A DNA stretch of 56,191 nt from an uncultured Candidatus Actinomarina sp. (GTDB taxonomy: Bacteria; Actinomycetota; Acidimicrobiia; Actinomarinales; Actinomarinaceae), in assembly GCA_902609285.1 (NCBI GenBank), contig CACLRL010000008.1, positions 1 to 56,191 on the forward strand. Direction: 5' to 3'. Positions 1 to 23,012 of this stretch are shown piece by piece. The notes beneath the pieces were generated by a model. The model worked only from the letters and a program-made list of their open reading frames with translations, made no database searches and was not told the DNA's origin. The number at the start of each line of letters is the position of its first letter. Within the stretch, counting starts at the first letter, position 1. The position numbers and the translations under genes were made by a program.

Positions 1-780
1 AGGTAGCCAGACGTGAAGTGGAAATTGAGCGCTTTTTCCCATTGCTCCAATAAAAAGAAGTACTCCTCCTAAATAAGCCACCGTCTTTATATCTTCATAG
101 TCATGAGTTGATTGATATAAAATTTCAGAAATCCTAAGTGTTTTAGTTGATAGCGCAAGTACAATAATTCCGATCATTAAACCTATGTCAGCAATTTTAT
201 TAGTGATAAAAGCTTTCATAGCTGCAGATGAATTTTCTTTTTTCTCCCAGTAATGGCCTATAAGTAAATATGAACAAACTCCAACAAGTTCCCAGCCAAT
301 TAAAAGTTGAAGGAGGGTTGGAGAAGATACTAAAACCAACATGCTTCCAGCGAATAAAGTTAACGAGGTAAAAAAGAATGTGTAACGTATTTCACCTTGC
401 ATATAGTTTGTTGCATATACAAATACTAGAGATGAAACAGTTCCAACTACAAAATACATCATTATTGATAATCCATCTACAACCCAACCAAATTCAAGAT
501 CGTAAGACCCTACACTTCCAACATTGATAAAAAATTCGTTAGCAATCCCTTTAGTTGCATGTTCATAAAGTAAAGCTGAACTATACAAAAATATAAATAA
601 GACTGTTCCTAAAGCTAATTCAGCTCCCTTTAAAGGAAGATATTTACCTAGAAAAGTTATAAACAAAGCTGCAAGAAAAGGTAATACAACAATTAGCCAC
701 GTAAATTCTGCAATTACACCACCATCTGTATATTCTGGTTTACCTTCAGCAAGAAAATTTACAAAATTTTGATTTACCAT
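1..780 (-). CDS. nuoL: NADH-quinone oxidoreductase subunit L, 5' part (complex I no. 1)
   Basis: Proton-pumping antiporter-like membrane subunit of complex I. Only the first 260 codons are in the window; the gene runs off the left edge, and the family is usually above 600 residues. Several hydrophobic segments are visible, with the conserved glutamate in the motif LIGWELVGVCSYLL and the lysine-containing GAMGKSAQFPLHVWLP at the cut end. The ATG at 780 overlaps the end of nuoK by seven bases, the usual operon coupling. It is clearly different from the second nuoL at 21121-23010. nuoM and nuoN of this operon would lie beyond the edge and cannot be confirmed. Confidence 0.95.
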   Translation of the reverse strand, partial: MVNQNFVNFLAEGKPEYTDGGVIAEFTWLIVVLPFLAALFITFLGKYLPLKGAELALGTVLFIFLYSSALLYEHATKGIANEFFINVGSVGSYDLEFGWVVDGLSIMMYFVVGTVSSLVFVYATNYMQGEIRYTFFFTSLTLFAGSMLVLVSSPTLLQLLIGWELVGVCSYLLIGHYWEKKENSSAAMKAFITNKIADIGLMIGIIVLALSTKTLRISEILYQSTHDYEDIKTVAYLGGVLLFIGAMGKSAQFPLHVWLP

Positions 781-1079
781 TTCATCAGATCGAATTCATT
801 AATATTTGCTGTTTCTCGATTCCTAAACAGCATTAATACAATTGCTAATCCAATACCGACTTCGGCTGCGGCGATTGTGATAATAAATATCGAAAATATT
901 TGTCCATTTAAAAAAACATCTGAAAGCATAGCATTAAATGCCACAAAATTTATATTTACTGCATTAAGAATTAGTTCGATTGAAAGCAAAACCATTACTG
1001 CATTTCTCCTAACAAGAATTCCATAAATACCTATGGAAAATAATGCTGCTGCTGCAATTAGTATCGGTTGAATACTCAT
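774..1079 (-). CDS. nuoK: NADH-quinone oxidoreductase subunit K (complex I no. 1)
   Basis: Small antiporter-like membrane subunit of complex I, 101 residues, the normal length. Three hydrophobic helices are present. The conserved helix-2 glutamate sits in SIELILNAVN and a second acidic residue in AAAEVGIGLAIV, both part of the proton path in this family. The ATG overlaps the nuoJ stop (ATGA) and the stop overlaps the nuoL start, so translation is probably coupled. A paralogue lies at 23013-23321. Confidence 0.96.
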   Translation of the reverse strand: MSIQPILIAAAALFSIGIYGILVRRNAVMVLLSIELILNAVNINFVAFNAMLSDVFLNGQIFSIFIITIAAAEVGIGLAIVLMLFRNRETANINEFDLMKW

Positions 1080-1594
1080 ATTTGGTCTTCGTCCATTAAT
1101 GCATTATCTTTTCTTGCTAGTGTTATTCCACCAATTAAAGCTCCCAATAAAACAAATGAAACTAATTCAAAAGGAAAAACAAATCTGCTTAATAAAATTT
1201 CGCCCAATAGCTTTGTTGATGTTCCCTCACGAATTACAACTGTTGAGTCGAATGTTTGTAGAAGAATATAAGTAAATATTCCAAAAATTGAGATCGATAT
1301 CAAAGTAGCAAATATTTTGTTTTGATCATTATCTAACTCAGCATTTGGACCTAAAGGAGCTCTTGTTATCATCACCCCAAATAAAAATAAAACAATTACA
1401 GCTCCTATGTATACAAGAACTAGGACCAAGGCTACAAACTCTGCAGATAATAAAATGAATAAAATAGCAGTAGTAGCTAGGGTGAAAACTAAAAAAATAG
1501 CAGCATGAATAACATTTGAAGTTGTCACTACTTTTATTCCACTAAGGAGAAGCAACAATAAAAGAAAGTATGAAAATATGTCTATTGCTTCCAT
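1076..1594 (-). CDS. nuoJ: NADH-quinone oxidoreductase subunit J (complex I no. 1)
   Basis: Five-helix membrane subunit J of complex I. The conserved third-helix segment reads LVLVYIGAVIVLFLF. The ATG at 1594 forms a TAATG junction with the nuoI stop. A 14-codon upstream extension is open, but it would overlap nuoI and adds a basic, non-hydrophobic tail, so the 172-residue form starting MEAIDIF is preferred. Product identity is firm; the start is very likely. Confidence 0.93.
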   Translation of the reverse strand: MEAIDIFSYFLLLLLLLSGIKVVTTSNVIHAAIFLVFTLATTAILFILLSAEFVALVLVLVYIGAVIVLFLFGVMITRAPLGPNAELDNDQNKIFATLISISIFGIFTYILLQTFDSTVVIREGTSTKLLGEILLSRFVFPFELVSFVLLGALIGGITLARKDNALMDEDQI

Positions 1595-2079
1595 TAGCTT
1601 TCTAAGCCTGGGCTTTCGGGAACAGTCTTTAACCATTCATCAAGCCTGTCTTTGTCATGAAGCATATCACCCATAGAAAACTCGGAATATTCATATTCAG
1701 GTGACCAGAACAGGGCATCAAAAGGGCACACCTCAACACAAATTCCACAGTACATACAAAGTGCATAATCGATATCAAAGCGATCGAGTACTGCTCTACT
1801 TCTTTGACGCCCTCCTGGTTTTGAAGGTGGTTGTAATTCTTTGTGACCTTCTATGTAAATACACCAATCTGGGCAAGATCTTGCACACAACATACAACTT
1901 GTACAAGCTTCTGAGTCTAAAGCAATAACTCCTCTTGTTCTTGGCGCAAGGACTTCTTTTTCAAAAGGATAATTAACGTTTGGGTTTTCAAAAAAAGGAA
2001 GAAGAGTCTTAAACATATTTCCAATAACAATTTTTAACCCAATCAAAAACCCAGGAATCCTTGGTTTAAATTTTTGCAT
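1594..2079 (-). CDS. nuoI: NADH-quinone oxidoreductase subunit I, 8Fe ferredoxin-type (complex I no. 1)
   Basis: Peripheral-arm subunit that carries two [4Fe-4S] clusters and passes electrons toward NuoB. Two cluster motifs are visible: CTSCMLCARSCP and CMYCGICVEVCP. The frame is open 38 codons further upstream, but that part overlaps nuoH and does not resemble the family. The ATG at 2079 gives the TAATG junction seen elsewhere in this operon and a normal 161-residue protein starting MQKFKPRIP. The product precedes nuoJ in the standard order. Confidence 0.94.
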   Translation of the reverse strand: MQKFKPRIPGFLIGLKIVIGNMFKTLLPFFENPNVNYPFEKEVLAPRTRGVIALDSEACTSCMLCARSCPDWCIYIEGHKELQPPSKPGGRQRSRAVLDRFDIDYALCMYCGICVEVCPFDALFWSPEYEYSEFSMGDMLHDKDRLDEWLKTVPESPGLES

Positions 2080-3059
2080 TAGAAAACTACTTTCATAATT
2101 GCTGTAACCATTATATTCAAAAGAGATACAGGTATAAGCACTTTCCAAGCTAGAGTCTGAAGTTGATCTTCCCTGAAGCGTGGAAAAGACCATCTGACAG
2201 CAATAAGAAGAAATGCTAAAATAAATGTCTTACCAATTAGAACCAATGGACCATAAAAGTTAACCCATTCTGTCGGTAAAAGTGGAATATGATAACCCCC
2301 TAAGAAAAGAGTTGAGGCAATCGCACACATTACAAATAAATTTATATATTCAGATATATAAAAAATAAGAAATCTAATCCCAGAATATTCTGTCATAAAG
2401 CCCATAGTTAATTCAGATTCGCCAATTGGCATATCAAATGGTGTTCTCATCATTTCAGCAGTTGCAGCAATCATAAAAATAATGAAAGCAATACCCTGTC
2501 CTGCTATTACAAAAGGAAATCCAAATTCAATCTGTTTTTCAACTATTCCAACTGTTGACATAGTTTCAGCTTGTATAACAACACCAACTACAGATAAAAT
2601 TAGTGGCAATTCATAGGCAATAAGTTGGCCCGCTGCTCTTAAACCACCCATTAAAGAAAACTTATTGGCAGAGGACCATCCAGCGGTTAGTACTCCGATA
2701 GTGGAGATGGAGCTGATTGCAAGTAAAAAGAAAACTCCTAATTCTAGATCGCGAACAACTAGTGTCGGACTTAATGGAATAATTGTGAAAAGGCCGACTA
2801 CAGCAGCTATAACCCAAGCTGGCGCCCACTTAAATACGGGCTCATCAACATCTTTTGGAATGATTGTTTCCTTTTGAAAATATTTTGCAGCTGTTGCAAG
2901 TGGAAATATAAATCCTCTTAAACCAACATGAAGAGGTCCAGGTCTCCTTTGCATCCAGGCAGAACCTTTAACCTCTAGCAAGGTAAGTCCTAAAGCCATT
3001 ACTGGAGCTGTCGCTAAAACAACCAAAACTTTGATAAGTAGTTCACTACTAAAACTCAT
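2079..3059 (-). CDS. nuoH: NADH-quinone oxidoreductase subunit H (complex I no. 1)
   Basis: Membrane subunit at the quinone-binding junction of complex I, 326 residues with about eight hydrophobic segments. The family signature is present as MQRRPGPLHVG near the N-terminus, and the acidic quinone-cavity loop is present as TPFDMPIGESELTMGFMTEYSGIR split over two helices. Its ATG overlaps the nuoD stop (ATGA). In 14-subunit operons nuoE, F and G sit between D and H. Here D is joined directly to H, so the NADH-oxidising module is absent from this operon. Confidence 0.96.
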   Translation of the reverse strand: MSFSSELLIKVLVVLATAPVMALGLTLLEVKGSAWMQRRPGPLHVGLRGFIFPLATAAKYFQKETIIPKDVDEPVFKWAPAWVIAAVVGLFTIIPLSPTLVVRDLELGVFFLLAISSISTIGVLTAGWSSANKFSLMGGLRAAGQLIAYELPLILSVVGVVIQAETMSTVGIVEKQIEFGFPFVIAGQGIAFIIFMIAATAEMMRTPFDMPIGESELTMGFMTEYSGIRFLIFYISEYINLFVMCAIASTLFLGGYHIPLLPTEWVNFYGPLVLIGKTFILAFLLIAVRWSFPRFREDQLQTLAWKVLIPVSLLNIMVTAIMKVVF

Positions 3060-4252
3060 CTATCAACATCCCCAAGAACAAAATCTAAACTACCCATTAT
3101 CGCTATCAAGTCAGGAAGCAATGCCCCTTCAAGCATGATTGGCAAAATTGAAATGTTACTAAATGAAGCTGTTCTTATTTTTAATCTATATGGCCCTAAA
3201 CCACCTTCAGAAATAATATAATATCCCATTTCACCCTTTGGATTTTCTGCTCTTACATATGTTTGTCCTTTAGGAACTTTTATAACTTTTGGTACCTTTG
3301 CTTGGATTGGTCCGGAAGGCATGTCTTCAATTGCTTGTAAAATAATTTTTGCAGATTCTCTCATCTCAGATGTTCTTACAGACCATCTGTCAAAACAGTC
3401 ACCATTTTCACCTATTGGTATTTCAAAATCAAATTTGTCATATGGTAAGTAATCTGATTGTTTTCTTAGGTCGAACTCAACACCTGATGCCCTTAATATT
3501 GGTCCAGACACTCCATACTCTTCCGCAACTTCTTTTGTTAGAACACCTACCTTTTTTGTTCTAGCTTGAAATACTTCATTTCCACCAATTAAGTCTTCAA
3601 AAGTATCAACAGCTTTCAAAACTTTTTCCATTGCAACTTTGGTGTCATGATAAAATCCTGCTGGCAAATCCTGTATATCTTTTTTTGTTGTTGGTCCAGC
3701 ACCTGCCACAGGTTTTACACCACCAATACGGTTGAAGTTTGGATGGAATCTTCCACCAGTGACCGATTCGAGCAAATCAAGAACTCTTTCTCGATCTTCC
3801 ATGGCTAGGAAAATAGGTGTTAGGGCACCAATCTCAAGAGGGAAGGCACCATTAAAAACAAAATGTGAACTTATCCTTGCCATTTCAGTCAAAATTAATC
3901 TAATGTATTGTGCCCTTTCAGGTACTTCAATTTCCATAAGTTTTTCTGCACCAGCGATAAATGGAATCTCATTTGCAAAACCTGAAACCCAATCAATTCT
4001 ATTAACTAATGTTGTTACTTGTGGATAAGTTCTGACCTCTGCAAGCTTTTCATATCCTCTGTGCATGTATCCAAGTACAGGTTCAACACTAGATATTTTT
4101 TCTCCATTGACTTTAGCTACTAACCTCAAAACTCCATGAGTTGATGGATGCTGAGGGCCAATATTTAAAGTCATATCTTCTGTTTCAATTTCTACAGAAA
4201 CTGATGCTTCAGATAAAATTGGCATATTGTTTGGATCCATAGTCTGAGACAT
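3056..4252 (-). CDS. nuoD: NADH-quinone oxidoreductase subunit D (complex I no. 1)
   Basis: 49-kDa-type subunit that forms the quinone pocket together with NuoB. The 398-residue protein has the conserved IGPQHPSTHGVLRL segment after a leader of roughly 30 residues, the YMHRGYEKL loop, and the typical C-terminus LDFVLGDVDR. Translation starts at an ATG overlapping the nuoC stop (TAATG). Paralogous to the protein at 29782-31137, but with a much shorter N-terminal extension. Confidence 0.96.
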   Translation of the reverse strand: MSQTMDPNNMPILSEASVSVEIETEDMTLNIGPQHPSTHGVLRLVAKVNGEKISSVEPVLGYMHRGYEKLAEVRTYPQVTTLVNRIDWVSGFANEIPFIAGAEKLMEIEVPERAQYIRLILTEMARISSHFVFNGAFPLEIGALTPIFLAMEDRERVLDLLESVTGGRFHPNFNRIGGVKPVAGAGPTTKKDIQDLPAGFYHDTKVAMEKVLKAVDTFEDLIGGNEVFQARTKKVGVLTKEVAEEYGVSGPILRASGVEFDLRKQSDYLPYDKFDFEIPIGENGDCFDRWSVRTSEMRESAKIILQAIEDMPSGPIQAKVPKVIKVPKGQTYVRAENPKGEMGYYIISEGGLGPYRLKIRTASFSNISILPIMLEGALLPDLIAIMGSLDFVLGDVDR

Positions 4253-4812
4253 TAGCTACCTTTTTCTTCTACAACGATACTGTCTTCAGGCATGCCTTCA
4301 ACATCAACATCACCTGGCCAAGGTTTTACTTCTCTACTAATTAGTTCAAAAGATTTCAAAAGAGGATTTCCCTCATAATCATCAGGTAAGTAAAGTTTTG
4401 TTAGATTTGGATGGTTCAAGAAATTTATTCCAAACATTTCATATGCTTCTCGCTCATGCCAGTTAGCACCAGCAAATACATCAACTAAAGATTCAATCTC
4501 AGCATTTTCTTTAGAAATTACTGTTGAAGAAATAACTAAATTATTTGAATTTGTTTGAGAAAGACAACTAAGTATTTCAAAACTTGGTGTTACAGGTTCT
4601 TTGGGTGCATCCCCAGTTTTTACTTCATTGTCCCAATCAACCGCTGACAACCAATTAAAAAAACTTAGATTAAAATCTTTTTTTAAAATTTTATGTGTAT
4701 CAATCCAAGATGATAAATCAACATTTATTTTTAAAGTATCAAAGTTATAAGACGTGTTTTTAAAGGAACTTTGTATTGAATTAATAAATTCGTTTTGGTC
4801 AGACTGGTTCAA
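4252..4812 (-). CDS. nuoC: NADH-quinone oxidoreductase subunit C (complex I no. 1)
   Basis: 30-kDa-type peripheral subunit of complex I. The signature is visible around [39 protein letters not shown] (split here; residues about 125-165). The start is uncertain. A TTG at 4812 has a GGAGAG ribosome site seven bases upstream and overlaps only the last codons of nuoB. A GTG at 4848 would overlap nuoB by 50 bases. I prefer 4812. Adjacent B-C-D order is standard. Confidence 0.9.
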
Positions 4813-5296
4813 TGTCTTTCTCTCTCCACTTTCCTTTAATATCTTCACCTTTTATTTTTTTCTGAAGTAAAACAATTCCCTCTTGCAATGCTTCTGGTCG
4901 AGGTGGACAACCTGGGACATATACATCAACAGGAATGAGTTGATCAACACCCTTTGTAACTGAATATGAGTCCCAATAAGGACCCCCGCTATTTGAACAA
5001 GAACCCATGGAAATCACATATTTTGGTTCAGGCATTTGATCATATAATCTTTTCACAGAAGGTGCCATTTTGTCAGTTACGGTACCTGCAACTACCATCA
5101 AGTCAGCTTGTCTTGGAGATGCAGGAAGAGGTATGATTCCTAATCTCATAAAATCATGTCTTGGTCCGCTAGCAGCCATAACTTCTATGGCACAACATGC
5201 TAGTCCAAATTGAAAATACCACATATCATAAGCTCGCGCCCAATTAAGTATTTTAGAAATAGGCTTAGGAACTCCAAATTTGTCGATTACTCCCAT
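4799..5296 (-). CDS. nuoB: NADH-quinone oxidoreductase subunit B (complex I no. 1)
   Basis: Subunit holding cluster N2, the last iron-sulfur centre before quinone. All expected cysteines are visible: the CC pair in [15 protein letters not shown], one in [10 protein letters not shown] and one in VPGCPPRPE. The length of 165 residues is normal. The ATG overlaps the nuoA stop by ten bases. Intact N2 ligands argue that this EFG-less complex is an active quinone reductase rather than a decaying copy. Confidence 0.96.
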
Positions 5297-5652
5297 TTCA
5301 ACACATCCTTTCTAATTGCATAAATTAAACCAAGCAGAAGTATAAAAATAAAAATAAACATCTCAATTAAACCAAAATATCCAAGATTCTCCAGATTTAA
5401 TGCCCATGGAAAGATAAATACAGCCTCAACATCAAATATTACAAAAAGTAACCCAAAGATATAGTATCTAACATATGTTTGGCTCCATCCCCCTCCAACA
5501 GGATCTACACCACACTCATAAGTCTTAATTTTTTCTGGAGTAGGTTTCTTTGGACTGAGCAATGCAGATAGAGATATAAAAACTAAAAACAATAAAAGTC
5601 CCAAACCTATCATTGCTCCAACCGTTACGTAATCTTGAAAATAAGAAATCAT
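5287..5652 (-). CDS. nuoA: NADH-quinone oxidoreductase subunit A (complex I no. 1)
   Basis: First gene of the first complex I operon; 121-residue, three-helix membrane subunit. The conserved loop with the quinone-switch cysteine is present ([15 protein letters not shown]), and the [21 protein letters not shown] segment (split) contains the conserved acidic residues. The promoter must lie in 5653-5727, which is shared with the divergent gene at 5728. No Rex-type palindrome occurs there, unlike upstream of the second nuoA. Confidence 0.96.
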
Positions 5653-5727
5653 ATATTAACTTTAGTATGCTTCTAAAATTTTAGTTTTTTTTAAAACATC
5701 GGTGGAATTCTTTTGTAAAATTTTTTG

Positions 5728-6810
5728 ATGGATAAAAAAAATTTTCTTAATTCTCCAAACATTACAGACTTGATAAAAATAATCGTGAACAAATTATGTT
5801 CTGAAGAGGTTTTCAAATCAGATAGTAAATTACGTTTGAAGAAATATGAAAGCTCAATGAAAAAAATTAACTTCATATTAGTAGATGGCCTTGGTAGTAA
5901 AAATATTGAGAATTTAGACAATATACTTACACAGAACCAGACTGATGAAATTGTCTCAACATTTCCAAGTTCAACAAGTGTAGCTTTGGGATCAGTCAAT
6001 TTAGGAAGCAACCCGATAGAAAATGGGTTGATTGGATATTACCATTTTGATAAATCCGAAAATAAATTAATTAATACATTGAATTGGAGAGGTTCGGAAA
6101 ATTATTTACAAGATAAAGATTTTTTTTCTAATCAAAAAACAATTTGGAACATTCTCAATGAAAAAAATATAGTTTTTAATGTCATTCAACCTAAAGATTT
6201 AATCAACACATCTTTATCAAAACATTTATATAAAGGCGCAAATCAAATTGGATATGAAACGTTAGATGAACTTGGAGAAATATTCAACCTTCCAAATATT
6301 TTAGATAATCAATTTAACTTTTTATATTATCCCGTAATTGATGTCGCTGCACATGTTTATGGTACAAATAGTGAAGAATGGTTAATAGAAGTTGAAAAGT
6401 TTTCTGAGTTTCTATCAGAAATAACAAAAAGTGATGAGGGTCGATACACTTGTTTAACAGCTGATCATGGTGTCATAAACGTAGATGATAAAAATAGACA
6501 CAAAATTATATATGATGATTCAATAAAGATTTATGGAGACCAAAGATCGGTATATATAAATGGAAACATGAAAAAAATAAAAAATATCTTTAAGAATATC
6601 CCTGGACATTTCCTAGAAAAACAAGAAATAGAATCACTCATTGGATTGCCAAATGACGATGAAAGAAATAATTTCTTTCCTGAACATGTGTTCTTACTTG
6701 ATGATGGTCATATTATTTTTCCAAATCATCTGAGTGCAAATTTAAGAGGATATCATGGCGGACTTTCACCCAAAGAAGTCTCCATCCCATTAATTGAGAT
6801 TGTGGGTTAA
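5728..6810 (+). CDS. alkaline phosphatase superfamily phosphodiesterase / nucleotide pyrophosphatase
   Basis: Predicted metal-dependent phosphohydrolase of the type I phosphodiesterase/nucleotide pyrophosphatase group (PF01663-like). Visible motifs: ILVDGLGSKN (metal aspartate about residue 53), the nucleophile loop TFPSSTSVALGS (threonine about 83), the metal-binding DVAAHVYG, LTADHGV, and the C-terminal YHGGLSPKEVSIPL. No signal peptide is seen, so it is probably cytosolic. The first ATG at 5728 is used; a TTG lies one codon upstream. No ribosome site is obvious. It is divergent from nuoA and convergent with the heliorhodopsin. Substrate unknown. Confidence 0.8.
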   Translation: MDKKNFLNSPNITDLIKIIVNKLCSEEVFKSDSKLRLKKYESSMKKINFILVDGLGSKNIENLDNILTQNQTDEIVSTFPSSTSVALGSVNLGSNPIENGLIGYYHFDKSENKLINTLNWRGSENYLQDKDFFSNQKTIWNILNEKNIVFNVIQPKDLINTSLSKHLYKGANQIGYETLDELGEIFNLPNILDNQFNFLYYPVIDVAAHVYGTNSEEWLIEVEKFSEFLSEITKSDEGRYTCLTADHGVINVDDKNRHKIIYDDSIKIYGDQRSVYINGNMKKIKNIFKNIPGHFLEKQEIESLIGLPNDDERNNFFPEHVFLLDDGHIIFPNHLSANLRGYHGGLSPKEVSIPLIEIVG

Positions 6811-6885: not shown

Positions 6886-7692
6886 TTAATTAGGTTGGTA
6901 GGTTCCAAAAAATACTTGCCATGCTAAAGCTGTTTTTGCTAAAAGACTCAACCATATATATGCTCTTTCTCCATACAAATAATCTTTCCATTTTCCAACA
7001 CCTTTATATTGGAGAACCATATTTATGGAAAAAGTATTAAAGAATAAAAATATACTTACAAATATCCAAACAACAAATTGAGGAACTCCTTGTGGATTGG
7101 AATCAGTAGCTACTCCGTCACCTATCAGATTGATAAATATAAATATCCATGGTGTAACACCAACCAAACACCCCATAATGTAACTTGTCCAATCAACCTT
7201 ATCTGTATATTGGTTATTAACTTCCATCATCCATCCAAACCAACACATCGCAGCATTCATGAAGAAAATTCCAAGAAGGGCCCAAACATCATAAATTCCA
7301 ACAAGTAATGCAATAAGGACAATCATTACAGAAGCGCTTATTGAATATTCAATCCATCTAACTTTGTTGATTCCTTTTCCAAGATCTTCTTGATATTTTT
7401 CATAAAATGGCCCAGAAATCAAAAAATGTGCGACAGCAGAAGCTAACAAAAATGTTGCCACAGCTGGACCAAAGTTCGTTACTTCTCTCCAGATTTCTAA
7501 TTCTGGAACAAGTGCAAAAGATGAGGGATTTTCGGAGCTACCTACACCAACCAGTTGAGTAAGCGTAATAGGTACAACAAAATCAGAATTTACAACAGTT
7601 CCTAGCCAAAATAATCCAGAGCCTTGAATCAAGTGCATGAAGCCCATGATGATATTAAAACGTCTTAGTTTTCTTATTTTTTCAGATATCAA
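6886..7692 (-). CDS. heliorhodopsin
   Basis: Seven-helix retinal protein of the heliorhodopsin family, whose members have an inverted membrane topology and are thought to be light sensors or enzyme regulators, not pumps. Diagnostic positions match the family: retinal Schiff-base lysine K253 in SLLAKTALAWQ, with S249 before it; counter-ion E115 in RWIEYSISASVMI; H20 in GFMHLIQG; H89 in SAVAHFLIS; plus QYKGVGKW and YGERAYIWLS before helix 7. The length of 268 residues is typical. A TTG start at 7692 is preferred because a GGGGGG ribosome site lies just upstream; a GTG at 7713 is the alternative. No retinal-synthesis gene (blh, crtB, crtY) is present in the window. Confidence 0.95.
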   Translation of the reverse strand: MISEKIRKLRRFNIIMGFMHLIQGSGLFWLGTVVNSDFVVPITLTQLVGVGSSENPSSFALVPELEIWREVTNFGPAVATFLLASAVAHFLISGPFYEKYQEDLGKGINKVRWIEYSISASVMIVLIALLVGIYDVWALLGIFFMNAAMCWFGWMMEVNNQYTDKVDWTSYIMGCLVGVTPWIFIFINLIGDGVATDSNPQGVPQFVVWIFVSIFLFFNTFSINMVLQYKGVGKWKDYLYGERAYIWLSLLAKTALAWQVFFGTYQPN

Positions 7693-7721
7693 ATTCCCCC
7701 CTTTGACACTCACATATTAAT

Positions 7722-7943
7722 ATGGAATTTACAAACATCTACTTAAATATGAATAAACAAGAAATGTATCAAGAAATCCAAAATATGCTTAATGAAATTG
7801 AGGTAATCTCAAAATCTATATCCTCAACAAGGGAATTTATTTCAGAAAATTCTAATAAAAGAGCAAAACAGAGATTAGCTGAAATAGAAAGTGATTTACA
7901 AAATATTGCAGGTAAAATTTCAAAAATTAATTCAGCGCTTTGA
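7722..7943 (+). CDS. small coiled-coil protein, unknown function
   Basis: Unrecognised 73-residue protein, rich in Glu, Lys, Ile and Ser, with a heptad-like pattern through most of its length (for example EMYQEIQNMLNEIEVISK), so probably a helical coiled coil. No membrane segment. It could also start at the ATG at 7749, giving 64 residues. A TTGACA box at 7703-7708 could be its -35 element if the later start is used. Divergent from heliorhodopsin with at most about 30-55 bases between them; its end overlaps the convergent fbpC end by 12 bases. It could be a partner of the heliorhodopsin, but nothing proves this. Confidence 0.55.
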   Translation: MEFTNIYLNMNKQEMYQEIQNMLNEIEVISKSISSTREFISENSNKRAKQRLAEIESDLQNIAGKISKINSAL

Positions 7944-8957
7944 GGGAAAAGTAGTAACCTCGGTTACATCAATACATACTTGATCTCCTGGCTCAAAAAT
8001 CATTGAAGGTAAGGATCGAGCTCTAAAAACTTCACCATTTTTATTTTCAAATGAGATCACTTGATCATGTCCATAGAATATACATTCTTTTACAATGTAA
8101 TCCCCATTAGAGTCTAAATTAACTTCTATACATTCTGGCCTAATTGATACATCTAAGTCTCCATCATATGCTGAATTAAATGTACCAAGAGAAGTTTTCA
8201 CTCTTCCATTTGTAGAGATTCCTTTTATGATATTTGGATCACCCACAGAGTTTGCAACTGTTTGACTGATAGGATTTAAGTATATCTCTTGTGGGGTTGC
8301 GCTTTGTATAACTTTTCCGTTTTCAAGGACACTTACAATATCACAAACTGATAGGGCTTCTTCCTGATCATGTGTGACGATAATTCCAGTAGTTTTTGTT
8401 GCTCTTAATAAAGAAACAACTTCTTCTCTTAAGTCCCTGGCCATTTGTGCATCTAAGCTTGTAAAAGGTTCATCCAATAATATGACTTCTGGTTTTGGAG
8501 CTAAGGCTCTTGCAATAGATACTCTTTGTTGTTGGCCCCCAGAAATATCTTGTGGATACTTATTTCTATATGGTTGTAAGTTAGTCATGTTGATTATTTC
8601 TTCTAATCTTCCATTTCTAATTTCGTCCTTTGAAAGACCGAATGAAATATTTTTTTCAACAGTTAAATGAGGAAAAAGAGCATAATCCTGAAAAACCATA
8701 CCAATTTTTCTTTCTTCTGGTGGAATATTAGTTTTTTTGTCATAAATTACTTTATTATGCATTTCAATTGTTCCCGCGTCGGGGTTTTCAAATCCAGCCA
8801 ATAACCTTAAAGCTGTTGTTTTACCAGATCCGGAAACACCTAGGATTCCAAAAATTGAACCATACCAAATATCAATATTGAAGTTTTCTAATACGATTTC
8901 ATCGCCATAAGATTTTGATAATGATCTAGCTCGAATAATTAAATTATCAAATACCAT
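7932..8957 (-). CDS. fbpC: ferric-iron ABC transporter ATPase
   Basis: ATP-hydrolysing subunit of a periplasmic-type iron(III) importer. Walker A GVSGSGKTT (about residues 40-48), Q-loop MVFQDYALFPH, signature ISGGQQQRVSIARAL, Walker B VILLDEPFTSLD and switch histidine TGIIVTHDQEEAL are all intact. The last roughly 100 residues form a TOBE-like regulatory domain, and the whole length (341) matches FbpC/FutC proteins. Starts two bases after the permease stop, so it is co-transcribed with fbpB. Substrate assignment rests on the iron-type binding protein at 10626-11741. Confidence 0.9.
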   Translation of the reverse strand: MVFDNLIIRARSLSKSYGDEIVLENFNIDIWYGSIFGILGVSGSGKTTALRLLAGFENPDAGTIEMHNKVIYDKKTNIPPEERKIGMVFQDYALFPHLTVEKNISFGLSKDEIRNGRLEEIINMTNLQPYRNKYPQDISGGQQQRVSIARALAPKPEVILLDEPFTSLDAQMARDLREEVVSLLRATKTTGIIVTHDQEEALSVCDIVSVLENGKVIQSATPQEIYLNPISQTVANSVGDPNIIKGISTNGRVKTSLGTFNSAYDGDLDVSIRPECIEVNLDSNGDYIVKECIFYGHDQVISFENKNGEVFRARSLPSMIFEPGDQVCIDVTEVTTFPSKR

Positions 8958-8959
8958 TT

Positions 8960-10516
8960 TTAAACCTCTAAATTCCTAGTACTTAATATATAAGTCGGAA
9001 TTGCACTTATTGCCAACAATATAAATGCCGAAAATGCAGCTTGAGTAAATAGTGCTTCAGATGCAAACGACCATACGTCAACTGCCATTGTGCTAAACTC
9101 TGTTGGTCTTAGTAGCAAGGTCTGAGGCAACTCTTTCATTGTTGAAAGAAAAACAAGTGCACCACCAGCAAATAAACCTCGATATATTAATGGGAAAGTG
9201 ATTCTTCTAAATGTTTCTATTTTTGACTGTCCAAGGCCAAGACTTGCTTCAATATAAGATGACTTCACTTGTTCCATTGAAGCTTGACCTCCACCTATTG
9301 CCTGGGGTAAAAAGACAATTAAATAAGAAATTACGAGTGCAAAAAAACTTTGATAAATATTAGGAAATAATTTTATGGAGATGAATAATATTGAAACACC
9401 TACTGCGAGATGAGGTAATCCATAAAGAGATAACATTATCTTTTCAAGAAGGTCACCATATCTTGATTTGTATTGAGATATCAGAATTACGATAGGCATA
9501 GCTATAATTATCGCAAAAAATGAGGTTGCTATTGCAGCTGTAAAAGATCCAAGAATTCCAGGAATTGAAGAACTAACATCGTTACCATAATAAATCCCTC
9601 TTATTAACCAAAAGCTCAATACAGAAATTGGAATAATCAAGCCAAGAAAAACTACAAGGCCTAGAAACGAGTAAGCGATTAATTTGCCTTTACCATTAAG
9701 CAATATTTTTTTTGGTATTCTTGGCGTTCCTGATACTTTTGCAGATCTTGAGGTGTCAGATCCTCTTTGAGCAAAACTAATTATTAAGGCTAGAACAATT
9801 AAAAGGCTTGAGTAAAAAATTACAGGGTCTCCAAGTATGCTCAATTCATAATAGGCATAAATAGCTTTCGTAACAGTAGAATATCGCATTAATGAAACTG
9901 CTCCGAAATCAGATATAACATAAAGGCCCACCAATAATCCAGAATATATTATGGGCTTTTTAAGCCGTGGAATAACAACATTCGTATAGACTTTGAATTG
10001 ATTTACGCCAAGAGAACGTGCAGCATCTTCAACTGTTGAATCAAGATTTCTCAATGCACTTGTGCAAATGAGCTGTACATAAGGGTAAGTAAACAAAGTT
10101 AAAACTAACCAACTTCCTAAAAAACCTTCTATTCCACTGATTTCATTAATACCGTACCTGTTAAAAATTTGAACGAATAATCCTTTAGGAGAGAATGCTG
10201 AAATATATGTCAAGGCCCCTATATATGAGGGTATAACTAATGGCAGTGCACACAAAGTGAATAAGATTTTTGATCCTGGAAAATCAAACCTTACGGTGAT
10301 AATTGATATTATTAAACCAATTATCAAGCTTGAAAATACAACAGCAAAAAATACAATTAATGTATTAAACACTAAGCCAAAAACATCCCATGATTCGAAA
10401 AAACTGGAAATAGATCTTGAGAAATTAAGAAATCTCCAAAGCATGTAAATTACAGGAGAAATAAAAATTACTAAAATTAAAGAATTTATTGTTAACAGAC
10501 TTTTTGGGATCCTCAC
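8960..10516 (-). CDS. fbpB: ferric-iron ABC transporter permease (two fused domains)
   Basis: Membrane permease with about twelve hydrophobic segments in two homologous halves (518 residues), as in FbpB/SfuB iron transporters. Each half carries the EAA-type loop that contacts the ATPase: VEDAARSLGVNQFKVYTNVV in the first half and YIEASLGLGQSKIETFRRI in the second. The GTG start at 10516 has no clear ribosome site. A stem-loop at 10558-10585 separates it from fbpA, which probably lowers permease expression relative to the binding protein. Confidence 0.9.
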   Translation of the reverse strand: MRIPKSLLTINSLILVIFISPVIYMLWRFLNFSRSISSFFESWDVFGLVFNTLIVFFAVVFSSLIIGLIISIITVRFDFPGSKILFTLCALPLVIPSYIGALTYISAFSPKGLFVQIFNRYGINEISGIEGFLGSWLVLTLFTYPYVQLICTSALRNLDSTVEDAARSLGVNQFKVYTNVVIPRLKKPIIYSGLLVGLYVISDFGAVSLMRYSTVTKAIYAYYELSILGDPVIFYSSLLIVLALIISFAQRGSDTSRSAKVSGTPRIPKKILLNGKGKLIAYSFLGLVVFLGLIIPISVLSFWLIRGIYYGNDVSSSIPGILGSFTAAIATSFFAIIIAMPIVILISQYKSRYGDLLEKIMLSLYGLPHLAVGVSILFISIKLFPNIYQSFFALVISYLIVFLPQAIGGGQASMEQVKSSYIEASLGLGQSKIETFRRITFPLIYRGLFAGGALVFLSTMKELPQTLLLRPTEFSTMAVDVWSFASEALFTQAAFSAFILLAISAIPTYILSTRNLEV

Positions 10517-10557
10517 ATATATAAGAATATCTATGATTTTAAGTTATTTAAAGAAAA

Positions 10558-10585
10558 ATTCTGGCCAAGTTTCCTTGGCCAGAAT
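10558..10585 (-). terminator. hairpin between fbpA and fbpB (attenuator/partial terminator)
   Basis: Perfect 12-bp stem (ATTCTGGCCAAG and its complement) with a four-base loop. On the minus strand it is followed by TTTTTCTTT. It lies after the fbpA stop and before the fbpB start. It looks like an intrinsic terminator that lets some transcripts through, a common way to make more binding protein than permease. Confidence 0.8.
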
Positions 10586-10625
10586 CTTATTCGGTTTCGA
10601 GCTTACTAGTTAATTTAATGACTGA

Positions 10626-11741
10626 CTAGAAACCTGCCTGCGCAATCAATTCAACAGCTTTTTCCTGCCAAAGTGCTAACGCTGACCAATTTAAATTCGA
10701 TGGAGAATTCAAACTGTTTATATCTGGTAGTAATGCATTTGGTGTTACACCTGGAACGAGAGGGAACTCATATACGGTATTAGTAAAATGCTCTTGAGCA
10801 CTTGTTGAATGTAAATATTCAATAAATGCTAAGGCTGCCGGTTTGTTTTGACTAGTTGACAAAACACCTGCACCTGCTGGCATCACCATTGCACCACAAC
10901 CACCATCTAAAAACACATTCTTAATAGGAGTATCACCAGCTTCAGCCAATGTTCTCAATGTGTAATAGTGATTAATCATTCCAATATCTAGCTCACCTGC
11001 AGCTGCAGCAGCAACTTGGGGTGAGTTCTTTGGATATTCTGTATATCCAAGTCCATTGATAGCAGTTAACCACTCAAGAACTTTTTCCTCACCATCAGAC
11101 TCAATCATGCAAGCAATCATCGCAATGAAAGATGAGTTTGTTGGTGCAAGTCCCAATCTATTTCTAAATTTTTCATCATTTAAACCATAAATATCAGAAG
11201 GTAATTCGGCATCTGTTACATCTCTTGTATCAACAACTAAAGATCGAGATCTTCCTGATGTACCTACCCAAAAACCATTTTTATCAACAGCCCATGATGG
11301 GACGTTATCAAGTAAATCAGCTGGCAATCTATCAAATAGACCTGCTTTGGCTACAACACCAAGACTTACTGGATCTTGTGAAAGAAAAACGTCTGCTGGG
11401 CTAATTGCACCTTCAAGTTCTAAAGTCCCTGCTAGTGCAGCACTCTTTGCATATCTAACTTCAACTTTTACTCCTGAAGTAGCTTCAAAAGCAGCAATTA
11501 CATCAGCAACTAAGCTTTCTTTTCTACCACTATAAATAACAAGTGTTCCTCCAACTTCTGCCTCAGGTTCAGCCAGAGCAGCTTCAACAGCAGCATCAAT
11601 AGCTTCTTGTGAAACCTCGCCTGCTGGTCCTGCTGGTCCTGCTTCACCTGCTGGTCCTGCTTCACCTTGCTCACCTTCGGTGGCACATGCTGCGAAAACC
11701 ATCAACATTACAGAAATCAAAGCAATAAATTTTTTATTCAT
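10626..11741 (-). CDS. fbpA: iron(III)-binding lipoprotein of ABC transporter
   Basis: Extracytoplasmic solute-binding protein of the FbpA/FutA group. Signal peptide with lipobox MVFAAC (Cys19). It is followed by an unusual collagen-like linker of seven Gly-X-Y triplets (about residues 22-42: GEQGEAGPAGEAGPAGPAGE). The mature part begins LVIYSGRKESLV, typical of iron-binding members, and the adjacent tyrosines that bind iron are in INHYYTLRTLAEAG. A ribosome site (AAGGT) lies just before the ATG. Divergent from hemH; an inverted repeat at 11766-11785 lies between them. Confidence 0.9.
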   Translation of the reverse strand: MNKKFIALISVMLMVFAACATEGEQGEAGPAGEAGPAGPAGEVSQEAIDAAVEAALAEPEAEVGGTLVIYSGRKESLVADVIAAFEATSGVKVEVRYAKSAALAGTLELEGAISPADVFLSQDPVSLGVVAKAGLFDRLPADLLDNVPSWAVDKNGFWVGTSGRSRSLVVDTRDVTDAELPSDIYGLNDEKFRNRLGLAPTNSSFIAMIACMIESDGEEKVLEWLTAINGLGYTEYPKNSPQVAAAAAGELDIGMINHYYTLRTLAEAGDTPIKNVFLDGGCGAMVMPAGAGVLSTSQNKPAALAFIEYLHSTSAQEHFTNTVYEFPLVPGVTPNALLPDINSLNSPSNLNWSALALWQEKAVELIAQAGF

Positions 11742-11873: not shown

Positions 11874-12920
11874 ATGAAATTAAAAAAAGCAATCTTACTA
11901 GTTAACTTAGGATCTCCTCAGGAGTTAAACAAAAAAAGTGTAAAAAAATATTTAAATATTTTTTTATCAGATGATTATGTTGTTGATATTCCTAAATTTT
12001 TACAACAACTTATTTTAAAATTGTTCATTTTACCTTTTAGACCAAAACAAACACTTCATGCTTATTCCCAAATTTGGACAGAAAAAGGTTCCCCACTTAT
12101 AATTTCTACATTTAAAATTAAGGAAAAATTGTCTAAGAAAACAGGCTGGCATGTAGAAGTTGCAATGAGATACGAGGAGCCAAGTATTGAATCTGCTCTT
12201 AAAAATTTAGAGTCTAAAGGTTTTAACAAAATATTTGTTGTAGCTCTATATCCTCATAATGCAATGTCAACAACTATCACTTCTCAAGTTGAAGTTGATC
12301 GGATTGCGAAAGAAATTATCCCTAATGCTGAATTGGTACATATAAAACCTTTTTACAACAATCAAAAATATATAACCGCCGTTGCAAATTCTGTTCAGAA
12401 ATATCTTAAAACAGAAAAATTTGATAAGTTAATATTCAGCTACCACGGAATTCCAAAGAGGCATGCAAAAAAGACGGACATGACTGGCTCTCACTGTTTT
12501 GTTAATAATGATTGCTGTGAGGTTGAAGAACTTGGTTCATCTGATTGTTATAAAGCTCACACAGTACAAGCCTCAATTAAGATAGCAAAAGAATTAGGAC
12601 TCAAGGATACAGAATGGGAAATTGCTTATCAATCAAGAATTGGTCCAGGATGGTTGACTCCTTTTACTGACAAGCGATTAGAAGCTTTGCCTACAGAAGG
12701 TAAAACATCAATAGGAATTCTTTGTCCTTCTTTTATTTCAGATTGTTTAGAAACCTTGGAAGAAATAGATATAAGAGGGAGAAAGACTTTTTTTGATTCA
12801 GGTGGAGAAAATATGACCTACATACCTTGTTTGAATGATTCTGAAGAAACTATAAATCTTTTAATTTCTATAATAAATGATGCTGAGAGTGTAAAAATTA
12901 AATCTTTGAATGTTGCTTAA
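11874..12920 (+). CDS. hemH: ferrochelatase
   Basis: Inserts Fe2+ into a porphyrin in the last steps of heme synthesis. Visible motifs: LLVNLGSP at the N-terminus, catalytic histidine H191 in FSYHGIPKRH, and acidic active-site E293 in CPSFISDCLETLEEI. The length of 348 is normal. Between residues 204 and 226 is a cysteine-rich stretch (C208, C214, C215, C225) which, with later cysteines, could bind a [2Fe-2S] cluster as reported for some bacterial ferrochelatases. Lying divergently from the iron importer, it belongs to an iron/heme block. No ribosome site is obvious. Confidence 0.95.
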   Translation: MKLKKAILLVNLGSPQELNKKSVKKYLNIFLSDDYVVDIPKFLQQLILKLFILPFRPKQTLHAYSQIWTEKGSPLIISTFKIKEKLSKKTGWHVEVAMRYEEPSIESALKNLESKGFNKIFVVALYPHNAMSTTITSQVEVDRIAKEIIPNAELVHIKPFYNNQKYITAVANSVQKYLKTEKFDKLIFSYHGIPKRHAKKTDMTGSHCFVNNDCCEVEELGSSDCYKAHTVQASIKIAKELGLKDTEWEIAYQSRIGPGWLTPFTDKRLEALPTEGKTSIGILCPSFISDCLETLEEIDIRGRKTFFDSGGENMTYIPCLNDSEETINLLISIINDAESVKIKSLNVA

Positions 12921-13204: not shown

Positions 13205-13918
13205 ATGCAAATTGATGATTTGAACTCTCAAAATTCTTTAGATAAAGATCAAATATTGAGCTATGAAGAAATAGAAAAATTTCCTAAATCTTTTTATACA
13301 CATGCTGAAGCCATATTTCATCTGAAGGAAGTTGGCATCGAAATTAAGCAAACACGTGTTGCTGAATGGTTATCTGTTAGCAGAGCAAATGTATCTCAAG
13401 TTGTCGGAAGAATGCAAAATAGTGGTTTAATTGAATTTAGCGATGACTTAAAACTTACCGAGACTGGTGAATGTCTTGCAATGAATATTTCGAGAAGACA
13501 TAGGATAACTGAACGATTTCTTTCTGAAGTACTTAACTTACCTTGGGATAAAGTTTATGAAGAAACTTCTAGATGGGAAAATGTTTTAAGCCCAATTACT
13601 GAAAAAGCAATGTTAAAAATGTTAGGTTATCCAAAAACAGGTCCTTTTGGAAATCCTATTCCTTATTCAAATTATCAAGAAAAAAACATGGTGAGTTTAT
13701 TAAATGTAGAATCAAATAAAACTTACTCTATAGAAAAAATAACAGAAGAGTTAAAAAAAGATTCATCTATGATTGATTTTCTCCAAACTCATGAAATGAT
13801 TCCTGGATCAACAATAAATGTTGCTGATGCCGGAGATTATTCAATTACCATCAGTACAAATAAAAATGATTATTTTGGTATTGATCAATTTATTGCAAAA
13901 AGAGTATTTGTCACATAA
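13205..13918 (+). CDS. DtxR/IdeR-family transcriptional regulator with degenerate metal site
   Basis: Winged-helix DNA-binding domain (about residues 30-90; recognition helix in SRANVSQVVGRM), dimerisation domain (about 95-155; RRHRITERFL and TGPFGNPIP), and a C-terminal SH3/FeoA-like domain (about 165-237). It aligns well by eye with DtxR/IdeR, but the metal ligands are mostly replaced. Primary-site Met10, Cys102 and His106 correspond to T32, S122 and N126; only E125 is kept. At the ancillary site H99 and E103 are kept and His98 is Y118. Likely controls fbpA and itself through the repeats at 11766 and 13176. The signal sensed is therefore uncertain. No ribosome site precedes the ATG. Confidence 0.85.
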   Translation: MQIDDLNSQNSLDKDQILSYEEIEKFPKSFYTHAEAIFHLKEVGIEIKQTRVAEWLSVSRANVSQVVGRMQNSGLIEFSDDLKLTETGECLAMNISRRHRITERFLSEVLNLPWDKVYEETSRWENVLSPITEKAMLKMLGYPKTGPFGNPIPYSNYQEKNMVSLLNVESNKTYSIEKITEELKKDSSMIDFLQTHEMIPGSTINVADAGDYSITISTNKNDYFGIDQFIAKRVFVT

Positions 13919-18030: not shown

Positions 18031-18168
18031 TTAATTTTCACTGTCTTCAGAATTTTGTCTTTTTCTTAGCCAGGTAAGTAGAAGAGCAGGAATTAAAAAC
18101 ATAAGCATTTCATCCCATCCTCCTTGATGATGAAAAACTGGCTTAATATTTGTATAAATAAAAATCAT
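18031..18168 (-). CDS. 45-residue membrane protein coupled to nuoN
   Basis: Short ORF whose ATG overlaps the nuoN stop in an ATGA junction, the same coupling used between the nuo genes. It encodes a histidine/glycine-containing segment (KPVFHHQGGWDEM), one membrane helix (LMFLIPALLLTW) and a basic, then acidic tail (LRKRQNSEDSEN). The junction and the helix make it credible as a real gene. It may be a lineage-specific small accessory protein of complex I, or unrelated. I do not recognise a named family. Confidence 0.6.
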   Translation of the reverse strand: MIFIYTNIKPVFHHQGGWDEMLMFLIPALLLTWLRKRQNSEDSEN

Positions 18169-19637
18169 AGATAATTCTGTACAACCCATCTTGAAATATT
18201 TATCAATGTATCTGGAAGAAGGCCAAATATTATTGTTAAGGATGCTAATGATCCAATTAACAGATATTCTGATTTTTTAATCAAAAGCGTTTCTACGGGC
18301 TCATCTACTTTTTCAATAGTTGCTATCCAAATTGGTCTTAGATAGAAATAAAAACCAACAACCGTTGAAAGTAAAAGTATTGATACCAAAAAATATCTTT
18401 CATAGGCCCAAAGATTTGTTAATAAAATAAATTTTGATACAAAACCACTCGTTAAAGGTATCCCAGCTAATCCAAACATGAAAACACAAAATGAAATTCC
18501 TAAAAACCTATTATTTTTTATAAGACCGTTAATATTGTCCATTTCAAAGTTAGAAGACAATTTTCCACTTATTATTGAAAATATTGTGAAAATTCCAATT
18601 AGTTGAAGAATGTAAGCAAACAAATAAAACATAGATGCACTTGTTCCGTTTACACCTGAAGTGATGCCAGAAAGAATAAAGCCAGACTGAACAACTCCAC
18701 TATACGCAATAAGCCTCTTTAGATCTGATTGTACAGACGCAAAAAATGATCCAATTAAAACTGAAAGCAAAATTACTACAAAGAAGAAAGTTTGAAAATC
18801 TTCAAGAATAAATGCCATTGATACCATACACATTCTCGCTATAACAATAAAAGAAGCTACTTTGGCAATTGAAGCCATGTATCCTACGTATCCAGTCGGT
18901 GAGCCTTGATAAACATCAGGCGCCCATGATTGAAATGGGGCAGCTGCAATCTTAAATAGTAAGCCAACAAATATGAATAAGACGCCTACAAAAGTAGTTA
19001 AAGGTACAATATCAGGTCCTGTATATGCAAGTGCTAACGCAAAATCATAGAAACTCATGACAGAATATGAAACATATACCAATGCAACCCCATAAATTAA
19101 AACACAAGAAGCCAAAGATCCAAGTAGAAAATACTTTAAAGATGCTTCATTGCTTAACTTGTCGCTTCTATTTAACCCAGCCAATGCATACAAACTTATC
19201 GATCCAATTTCAAGTCCAATAAATAACATAATTAAGTTTTCCGCATCGACCATTAGGAAGAATCCAGAGGCACTCATTAAAGTTAAAATAATAGCCTCAG
19301 AAGTTTTTTCATTTAATTTGGAGGAGGTATCCCATATTGGTAGAAAATTTAAAAATAATATCATAGCAATCAATACATTTCCAAATAATGAAAATTCATC
19401 TAGCAGGATTTTTTGAGTGAAATAGGAACTTATTCCATTTTGAAGAAACAAGCCAAATTTTAAAAATACACAAAATACTGTTACGAGTATTCCCAAAAAC
19501 GTAATCCATTTCTTAACACTGAGGCTAGTTTCAACAGTTATCGTAAAGAATAAAAGTATCAGAACAGTAATTACTAATGTAACTGAAGGAGAAATCACAA
19601 TTAAATTAAACCCGATGGCTTCAGCTATTTGGCTCAT
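18165..19637 (-). CDS. nuoN: NADH-quinone oxidoreductase subunit N (complex I no. 2)
   Basis: Antiporter-like proton-pumping subunit, 490 residues with about fourteen hydrophobic segments. The conserved helix glutamate is in LFIGLEIGSISLYAL, the lysine in GLLFKIAAAPFQSW and a second lysine in SDLKRLIAYSGVVQSG. Its ATG overlaps the nuoM stop, and its stop overlaps the start of the 45-residue ORF. Completes the 14-subunit set. Confidence 0.96.
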   Translation of the reverse strand: MSQIAEAIGFNLIVISPSVTLVITVLILLFFTITVETSLSVKKWITFLGILVTVFCVFLKFGLFLQNGISSYFTQKILLDEFSLFGNVLIAMILFLNFLPIWDTSSKLNEKTSEAIILTLMSASGFFLMVDAENLIMLFIGLEIGSISLYALAGLNRSDKLSNEASLKYFLLGSLASCVLIYGVALVYVSYSVMSFYDFALALAYTGPDIVPLTTFVGVLFIFVGLLFKIAAAPFQSWAPDVYQGSPTGYVGYMASIAKVASFIVIARMCMVSMAFILEDFQTFFFVVILLSVLIGSFFASVQSDLKRLIAYSGVVQSGFILSGITSGVNGTSASMFYLFAYILQLIGIFTIFSIISGKLSSNFEMDNINGLIKNNRFLGISFCVFMFGLAGIPLTSGFVSKFILLTNLWAYERYFLVSILLLSTVVGFYFYLRPIWIATIEKVDEPVETLLIKKSEYLLIGSLASLTIIFGLLPDTLINISRWVVQNYL

Positions 19638-21124
19638 TTTGATAATCCTATTGTGTTGTTTATTGATTCATAAATAACTGATACATCTTGAACAACATAA
19701 CTTTCAATAAAGCTTGGATATAGTCCTATGAACAACATCAGGATAAGTAAAGGAGCAACTGATACAATTTCTTTTGAATTTAAATCTAGTACATTTTTGT
19801 TGTCTTCATGTGTTAACTCTCCATTAAACATTCTCTGGTAAGCCCACAACATGTATATTGCAGCAAGAACAACTCCAAAAGCTGCTATTGAAGAAAGTAA
19901 ATTAAATGTTGGGAAACTTCCCATTAAAATCATAAATTCTCCAACAAATCCATTTAAACCTGGCAACCCTATAGATGCAAATGAAGTAAATAGAAAAATT
20001 CCTGCATAAATAGGCATAGATTTTTTTAATCCACCAAAATCAGAGATACGTCTTGTGTGTCTTCTCTCATAAAGAAAACCAACGAGCATAAATAGGGCGC
20101 CAGATGTAATTCCGTGATTTATCATCTGAATTACTGCTCCCTCTAAACTTAAATATCTTCCTGCCGAAATACCAAGCATTACAAAACCCATATGACTTAT
20201 TGAAGAATATGCAATTAATTTCTTAATATCTATTTGAACAATAGCGACTACTGCTCCATATATAATTCCAACTACTGATAAAGTAGCGATTAAGAACTGA
20301 TACTCAATAAATCCCTCTGTGAAAAAAGGAATTGATACTCTTAATATTCCGTAAGCTCCGACTTTTAAAAGCACTCCAGCAAGTAAAATACTCCCCGCTG
20401 TTGGCGCCTCTACATGTGCATCAGGCAACCAAGTATGAAGTGGAAAAATAGGGACTTTAATCAAGAAACCGAATGTAAAGAGAAGAAATAGTATTTTTGA
20501 TTGACTTGAAGTTATTGATAATGAGGATAAAGAGTCAAAATCGAGTGCAAAATTTCCTGAGGAAAGATAACTCAAAACTCCTGTGTATATTGTTCCAGCA
20601 AGAATAAAAATTGATCCAAAAACTGTATAAAGAATAAATTTGATGGTTGCATATCTTTTGTTTTCACCACCCCAAATTCCCATTAAGAAATACATTGGTA
20701 TAAGCAAGGCTTCAAAGAAAATAAATAAAGAAATTAAATCACCTGCTAAGAATACGCCGTTCACTGAAGCTTGTAATAACATTAGCGCACTCAAAAATCC
20801 TTTACTAAAAGAATGGTTTTCATTTAAAGAAAGAATTGAAAGTAAAACAAGTAAACAATTTAATGTAACCAATAAAAAGGACATGCCAGAAAGTCCAATA
20901 ATTAGATCAATACCATATGCACTTATCCAGGAAAACTCATCTACAACATAAAAGCTAGTTTTTAAATTTTGATTTAAAAATACATACAAACATAAGCCAA
21001 GTGGAATTAGGCTCAAAAAGATTGTTAAGGGCCTAAATAACTCTGCCCTTCTTTTTGGTATCAAGAATATAAATACTGAATTGACTAATGGAAGAAGTAT
21101 GAAGCTATAAGTTAGACCTATCAT
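19634..21124 (-). CDS. nuoM: NADH-quinone oxidoreductase subunit M (complex I no. 2)
   Basis: Antiporter-like subunit with about fourteen membrane helices (496 residues). The pump residues are visible: glutamate in FIFFEALLIPMYFLMG, lysines in GFLIKVPIFPLHTWLPDAH and IDIKKLIAYSSISHMGFV (given in parts), and a later histidine in MINHGITSGALF. ATG overlaps the nuoL stop. Standard position between nuoL and nuoN. Confidence 0.97.
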   Translation of the reverse strand: MIGLTYSFILLPLVNSVFIFLIPKRRAELFRPLTIFLSLIPLGLCLYVFLNQNLKTSFYVVDEFSWISAYGIDLIIGLSGMSFLLVTLNCLLVLLSILSLNENHSFSKGFLSALMLLQASVNGVFLAGDLISLFIFFEALLIPMYFLMGIWGGENKRYATIKFILYTVFGSIFILAGTIYTGVLSYLSSGNFALDFDSLSSLSITSSQSKILFLLFTFGFLIKVPIFPLHTWLPDAHVEAPTAGSILLAGVLLKVGAYGILRVSIPFFTEGFIEYQFLIATLSVVGIIYGAVVAIVQIDIKKLIAYSSISHMGFVMLGISAGRYLSLEGAVIQMINHGITSGALFMLVGFLYERRHTRRISDFGGLKKSMPIYAGIFLFTSFASIGLPGLNGFVGEFMILMGSFPTFNLLSSIAAFGVVLAAIYMLWAYQRMFNGELTHEDNKNVLDLNSKEIVSVAPLLILMLFIGLYPSFIESYVVQDVSVIYESINNTIGLSK

Positions 21125-23010: not shown

Positions 23011-23012
23011 AG

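Follow-up and report, generated by a model that had tools for sequence, protein, structure and literature searches.

Heliorhodopsins (HeRs) have seven helices with a long beta hairpin between helices A and B, and the family is characterised by an inverted topology with a cytoplasmic N terminus. The function of these proteins is still an open question, and their neighbouring genes have been one of the main clues used to approach it. Partners have been described for three HeRs: glutamine synthetase for AbHeR (PMC9529153), a photolyase for TfHeR (PMC9769723) and the ABC transporter OmrDE for OcHeR (PMC11109279).

The HeR locus of the order Actinomarinales was described in 2020 (PMC7771536). According to that account the gene lies between two nuo clusters, one of them without nuoEFG, and an Fe3+ ABC transporter, a ferrochelatase and an iron-dependent repressor belong to the same locus. 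Two nuo loci which surround the HeR gene, and which are not directly adjacent to it, are also described in PMC9529153. For the second nuo cluster F420 input was suggested in PMC7771536, and the same source reports that a retinal synthesis pathway was not recovered from Actinomarinales genes.

The present analysis concerns a stretch of 56,191 nucleotides (the window) from contig CACLRL010000008.1 of an uncultured Candidatus Actinomarina sp. (GCA_902609285.1). Its HeR gene and the position of that gene agree with those of PMC7771536, from which the placement between nuo and iron genes is already known. The original prediction for this DNA, derived from the letters alone, had read the neighbourhood as a sign that HeR is linked to redox or metal stress signalling under light.

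Identity and structure of the heliorhodopsin

The open reading frame at 7692..6886 on the minus strand (stop included, 268 amino acids, TTG start) is a genuine, full-length heliorhodopsin of Candidatus Actinomarina; the original prediction had given its interval with no strand. The protein passed the cut-offs of Pfam Heliorhodopsin PF18761 (295 bits, cut-off 26.7) and of the NCBIfam HeR model NF038020 (310 bits, cut-off 100), and a sequence search of the PDB returned six distinct sequences, all named heliorhodopsin. The mechanically called reading frame is longer and begins with a GTG at 7713. The TTG at 7692, with which the originally proposed interval also began, is preferred because the Shine-Dalgarno-like AAGGGGGG stands immediately upstream of it and because the starts of relatives align at about the same place. 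Across the order HeR identity is 84-98 %, and the relatives in this range are mostly filed as Candidatus Actinomarina, with a few under broader names.

The five residues named as diagnostic in the original prediction (H20, H89, E115, S249 and K253) are indeed present, and each is found in 36/36 sequences of the order (the window and L031-L065; the partial L066 was dropped for length). We take K253 to be the retinal lysine, E115 the glutamate counterion, and H20, H89 and S249 the two histidines and the serine of the pocket. Of the 144 HeRs from outside the order one was dropped for length; among the remaining 143, 141 have H20 and all have the other four residues. Counted along the alignment, S249, K253 and E115 correspond to residues 237, 241 and 107 of the 48C12 HeR. 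At four further positions (W151, S222, L251, Y265) the HeRs of the order are invariant and carry a residue other than the one most common among the outside HeRs.

An AlphaFold2 model was obtained with an alignment of 56 rows, consisting of the window, 18 of the 36 loci of the order and 37 of the 44 outside loci from the first search. The model (pLDDT 90.3) has the seven helices and the long A-B beta hairpin of the family, whose strands (40-52 and 55-71) follow helix 1 and precede helix 2. Its best structural matches in the PDB were themselves HeRs (6is6 with TMq 0.89, 7clj, 7u55 and 6su3), and the model and the profile scores together bear out the initial heliorhodopsin call. The key residues and the model fold are common to TaHeR (6is6, 7u55) and 48C12 HeR (6su3, 6su4). 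In structural alignments the Actinomarina protein is 44-49 % identical to these two, and differs from them in having longer A-B and E-F loops. A cytoplasmic N terminus is assumed by analogy with the family. Compared with the L034 homologue the gene has a dN of 0.034 and a dS of about 2, which is near saturation; HeR is under strong purifying selection.

Gene layout of the locus

The features of the window to which we refer are the following:

774..5652, minus strand: portion of the second nuo cluster that falls inside the window (read as A, B, C, D, H, I, J, K, with D followed by H and lacking E, F, G there)
5725..6810, plus strand: type I phosphodiesterase/nucleotide pyrophosphatase-like protein (PF01663, 1.2e-12), convergent with HeR
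6886..7692, minus strand: heliorhodopsin (PF18761, NF038020, key residues in 36/36, AlphaFold2 match to PDB HeRs)
7693..7748, no strand: 56-nt spacer separating the start codon of HeR from that of the divergent 64-aa gene (sequence, aligned upstream regions)
7749..7943, plus strand: 64-aa helical-hairpin protein, divergent from HeR, sharing 12 nt with the 3' end of fbpC
7932..11741, minus strand: fbpC, fbpB and fbpA, ferric-type ABC transporter (Pfam; FbpA nearest to solved ferric-binding proteins)
11874..12920, plus strand: ferrochelatase hemH (PF00762)
13205..13918, plus strand: DtxR-type iron-dependent repressor (PF02742, PF01325)
18165..32415, minus strand: 14-gene nuo operon (A-N by reading of the ORFs; profile run for D only)

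The kinds of neighbour that had been named were recovered from the ORFs and Pfam, the phosphohydrolase as a type I phosphodiesterase and the small coiled-coil protein as a small helical ORF, together with nuo genes and iron/heme genes. Profiles were run for C, I, D and H of the second nuo cluster, and its other gene names rest on sequence and position. Among solved structures FbpA is nearest to ferric-binding proteins (7w3w, 1.2e-63), and its weak NCBIfam matches are phosphonate binders. The phosphodiesterase is fast-evolving, with identity down to 40 % inside the order.

Both genes that flank HeR lie on the opposite strand, the phosphodiesterase being convergent and the 64-aa gene divergent, and HeR therefore has no operon in common with the nuo, fbp or hemH genes. 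The partners of AbHeR, TfHeR and OcHeR, as given in the publications cited above, came from the operon of the respective HeR, whereas the Actinomarina HeR has no co-oriented adjacent gene, unlike the HeRs that PMC11109279 groups by operon partner. An operon of HeR with fbpABC was considered and rejected, as the two are separated by the 64-aa gene, which has the other orientation.

Among the 35 loci extending as far as the phosphodiesterase, 23 have a lipoprotein gene, assigned to DUF4349 from Pfam runs on two such genes, between HeR and the phosphodiesterase (e.g. L060:10884-11690), and HeR is then convergent with this gene; in the other 12 HeR adjoins the phosphodiesterase directly. The lipoprotein was rejected as a partner of HeR, being encoded on the opposite strand and missing from the window.

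Synteny within the order

Adjacency of the genes of the block was scored in 36 named loci of the order (L031-L066), and the context of HeR was found to be conserved in these relatives. The 64-aa gene adjoins HeR in 36/36 loci and fbpC in 35/35, and close by fbpB-fbpC and phosphodiesterase-nuoA2 are each adjacent in 34/34. Unrelated pairs of the block are equally kept (tdk-DUF454 and DUF454-dtxR in 31/31, o131-tdk in 30/30). Since such pairs are preserved as perfectly as the 64-aa gene and HeR, the context of HeR is read as synteny of the whole block. The pair nuoN1-abcA, adjacent in 6/18 loci only, was left unused, its nuoN1 query having further matches to other nuo subunits in the second cluster.

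In 11/31 loci the ferrochelatase gene was not found at its place; dtxR and fbpA are 204-512 nt apart there, which leaves too little room for it. In 2 of the 20 loci that have it between these two genes it is turned round. In L065, fbpABC is 46-62 % identical to the window, compared to 88 % for HeR and 66-90 % for the second nuo cluster, and dtxR was not found; the iron genes of this locus may have been replaced in place. The contig of L066 is filed as Proteobacteria and carries the Actinomarina block, probably as a result of mis-binning.

The redox or metal reading would have HeR tune iron uptake, through FbpC, or the EFG-less complex I by light. It draws on the constant linkage of HeR with fbpC and the second nuo cluster in the loci that cover them, on the ferric type of FbpA and on the interaction with an ABC transporter published for another HeR (PMC11109279). 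Part of it stands, i.e. the context is real and kept in the 36 named loci of the order. The functional link, however, is unlikely, given the opposite strand of the flanking genes and hence the lack of an operon, the equal synteny of unrelated genes of the block, the loci in which hemH was not found at its place, the divergence of fbpABC in L065 beside a well-kept HeR, and a context that is not repeated outside the order (see below). Most likely the nuo and iron neighbours of HeR are bystanders of block synteny.

HeR loci outside the order

From outside the order 144 HeR loci were compared, 44 from the first search for HeR relatives and 100 from genomes of the class, with a total of 2.24 Mb and many of them cut by contig ends. 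One of the 144 has a nuo operon beside HeR (L151, genome G242), which includes E, F and G and is separated from HeR by one gene, and one has fbpC together with fbpB (L159). In L087 a single nuoK-like match was seen, 6.6 kb from HeR, and a ferrochelatase match of 21 % identity was seen at the edge of L164. The ABC ATPase query, which represents a very large family, had some match in 25/144 loci. With a genome of 3 Mb and loci of 20 kb, chance would give about 1 % per locus, by a rough estimate made with no computed control, and on this estimate the occurrence of nuo and fbp genes in the outside loci is approximately at chance level. The comparison of neighbourhoods that had been proposed as a check on the original prediction thus did not extend the nuo and iron context beyond the order. 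It also illustrates a limit of the context method, as a context that is kept order-wide was no better conserved than unrelated gene pairs of the block and went unrepeated in the outside loci examined.

L151 belongs to another family of the class. There (L151:1-18286) HeR lies between the nuo operon, visible from A to I up to the edge of the locus, and an antiporter operon which, by reading of the sequence, is presumably of the Mrp type; a DUF1295 gene adjoins. Two tandem HeR matches were observed in a Methanomassiliicoccaceae genome (L097:9073-10738).

The three outside HeRs of highest identity (56 % by tblastn; L112/L142, L113/L143 and L115/L144) are all convergent with a DNA photolyase gene, and the patescibacterial HeR L071 is nearly as close to the HeR of the order (53 % in one comparison, 56 % in another). 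Including two more loci of the class, L191 and L234, photolyase was detected within 1 kb of HeR in 5/144 outside loci, with a single query that may miss other photolyase classes; Pfam was run for L191 only of the latter two. Near HeR and photolyase in L142 there is a pair of genes for an ECF sigma factor and an RskA-type anti-sigma factor.

Heliorhodopsin is widespread in the order: PF18761 is found in 36/42 genomes and in 8/8 of those at least 90 % complete. In the class as a whole it occurs in 143/296 genomes, and in 107/254 of those outside the order. A quick tree gave the HeRs of the order a long stem (1.14) and grouped them with HeRs of archaea, Patescibacteria and Chloroflexota, apart from 27 of the 30 HeRs of the class. 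Constraining them to group with those 27 was not rejected (p-AU 0.63), and the claim of a horizontal gain of HeR was dropped. A constrained grouping with the three photolyase-linked relatives was not rejected either (p-AU 0.61).

These relatives suggest another function for the Actinomarina HeR, namely that it acts on DNA photorepair as TfHeR does with its photolyase, the gene having lost its linkage. The order does possess a photolyase, described as lying beside the type-1 rhodopsin (PMC7771536), and in the genome of the window an ORF upstream of the type-1 rhodopsin (L111) has a sub-threshold PF03441 match. This photolyase, however, is linked to the type-1 rhodopsin and not to HeR, the linkage was seen in few of the outside loci with the one query used, and the grouping with the photolyase-linked HeRs is neither shown nor rejected. 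We consider a role in photorepair improbable.

Retinal supply and proposed function

Carotenoid cleavage genes, a search for which had been advised in the original prediction, were not found: BCD/Blh was recognised in 0/42 genomes of the order, eight of them at least 90 % complete, with a model that matches 13/246 genomes of the phylum and 0/14 standard controls. Neither RPE65 (controls 2/14) nor phytoene/squalene synthase (controls 7/14) was found in the same 42 genomes. A type-1 rhodopsin is present in 33/42 genomes of the order, including 8/8 of the near-complete ones. As the three retinal-pathway families were not found, HeR and the type-1 rhodopsin would both use external retinal, which is probably scavenged by Actinomarina, in line with what PMC7771536 reports.

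On balance we favour the view that the HeR is a slow-cycling photosensor on scavenged retinal, with light-regulated binding of a partner, and that the nuo and iron genes are bystanders. The retinal is expected to be bound at K253, with E115 as the counterion, in a seven-helix membrane protein. HeR would take up scavenged retinal and undergo a slow photocycle, and light may alter its cytoplasmic face so that the binding to a partner protein changes. The light-regulated partner is proposed by analogy with AbHeR, TfHeR and OcHeR, members of the same family, as they are described in the publications cited above. It is very unlikely that the protein is instead a light-driven ion transporter or channel like the giant-virus HeR V2HeR3, which is of the same family and predicted fold and transports protons (PMC9448325), since the order already has a type-1 rhodopsin that is a proton pump according to PMC7771536, where heliorhodopsins are said to be certainly not proton pumps.

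The 64-aa protein beside HeR

Among the neighbours of HeR, the 64-aa protein is the strongest candidate for the partner of such a photosensor, while a partner elsewhere in the genome is equally likely. Its homologues have 64 amino acids and zero indels in 36/36 named loci of the order, and 15 positions are invariant among 29 aligned rows. Relative to L034 the changes at the three codon positions are 8/5/28 (dN 0.123, dS 1.35); third-position changes dominate, and this is therefore a real, selected gene. The protein diverges much faster than HeR, with 39-53 % identity to distant members. AlphaFold2, run with 29 of the 37 rows available, gave a two-helix hairpin (pLDDT 97), for which Foldseek returned only generic helical bundles (best E 0.31), and no Pfam model reached its cut-off with the sequence.

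The window and L043 both have 56 nt between the start codons of the two divergent genes; in L060, L065 and L057 the distance is 48, 52 and 59 nt, respectively. A scan for promoters and terminators gave 8 promoter-like sites, compared to 13.4 in shuffles, and zero terminators.

A profile of the 64-aa protein matched 36/296 genomes of the class, and these are exactly the 36 HeR-bearing genomes of the order. It matched 0/6 genomes of the order without HeR and 0/254 other genomes of the class, 107 of which bear HeR, although a profile this short may miss distant kin. The shared absence counts as weak evidence because the six genomes are incomplete (60-78 %), and linkage inside the syntenic block may be the sole cause of the co-occurrence. 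We regard it as doubtful that the Actinomarinales HeR has in this protein a dedicated soluble transducer, the pair sharing a divergent promoter region. If true, it would be a rhodopsin-transducer pair unlike the operon-linked HeR partners known from the publications compared here.

The 64-aa gene beside HeR, as described here, is possibly new. A literature search, in the texts accessible to it, found no published link of a coiled-coil or small partner to the Actinomarinales HeR. The words 'coiled' and 'phosphodiesterase' are absent from the main text of PMC7771536, figures aside, and the account of the locus given there does not mention the divergent gene. One small uncharacterised protein has thereby been singled out that can be tested directly against HeR.

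The second nuo cluster

The FpoF/FrhB-type subunit (PF04432, FrhB_FdhB_C) was found in 0/42 genomes of the order, eight of them at least 90 % complete, and in 3/14 controls, which leaves the F420 input suggested in PMC7771536 with no subunit recognised in these genomes. NuoD2 scored 341 bits with FpoD (cut-off 600) and 453 bits with the best NuoD-type model (cut-off 522), both below the cut-off, and passed PRK06075 NuoD with 419 bits (cut-off 360). For NuoH2 the scores were 236 bits with FpoH (cut-off 475) and 290 bits with the best NuoH model (cut-off 305), neither of which was reached. With the subunit not recognised and the Fpo scores below the Nuo scores, the published F420 idea is weakened, and the results argue against F420 as the input of this complex I cluster. 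A direct donor of the ferredoxin type is a candidate alternative.
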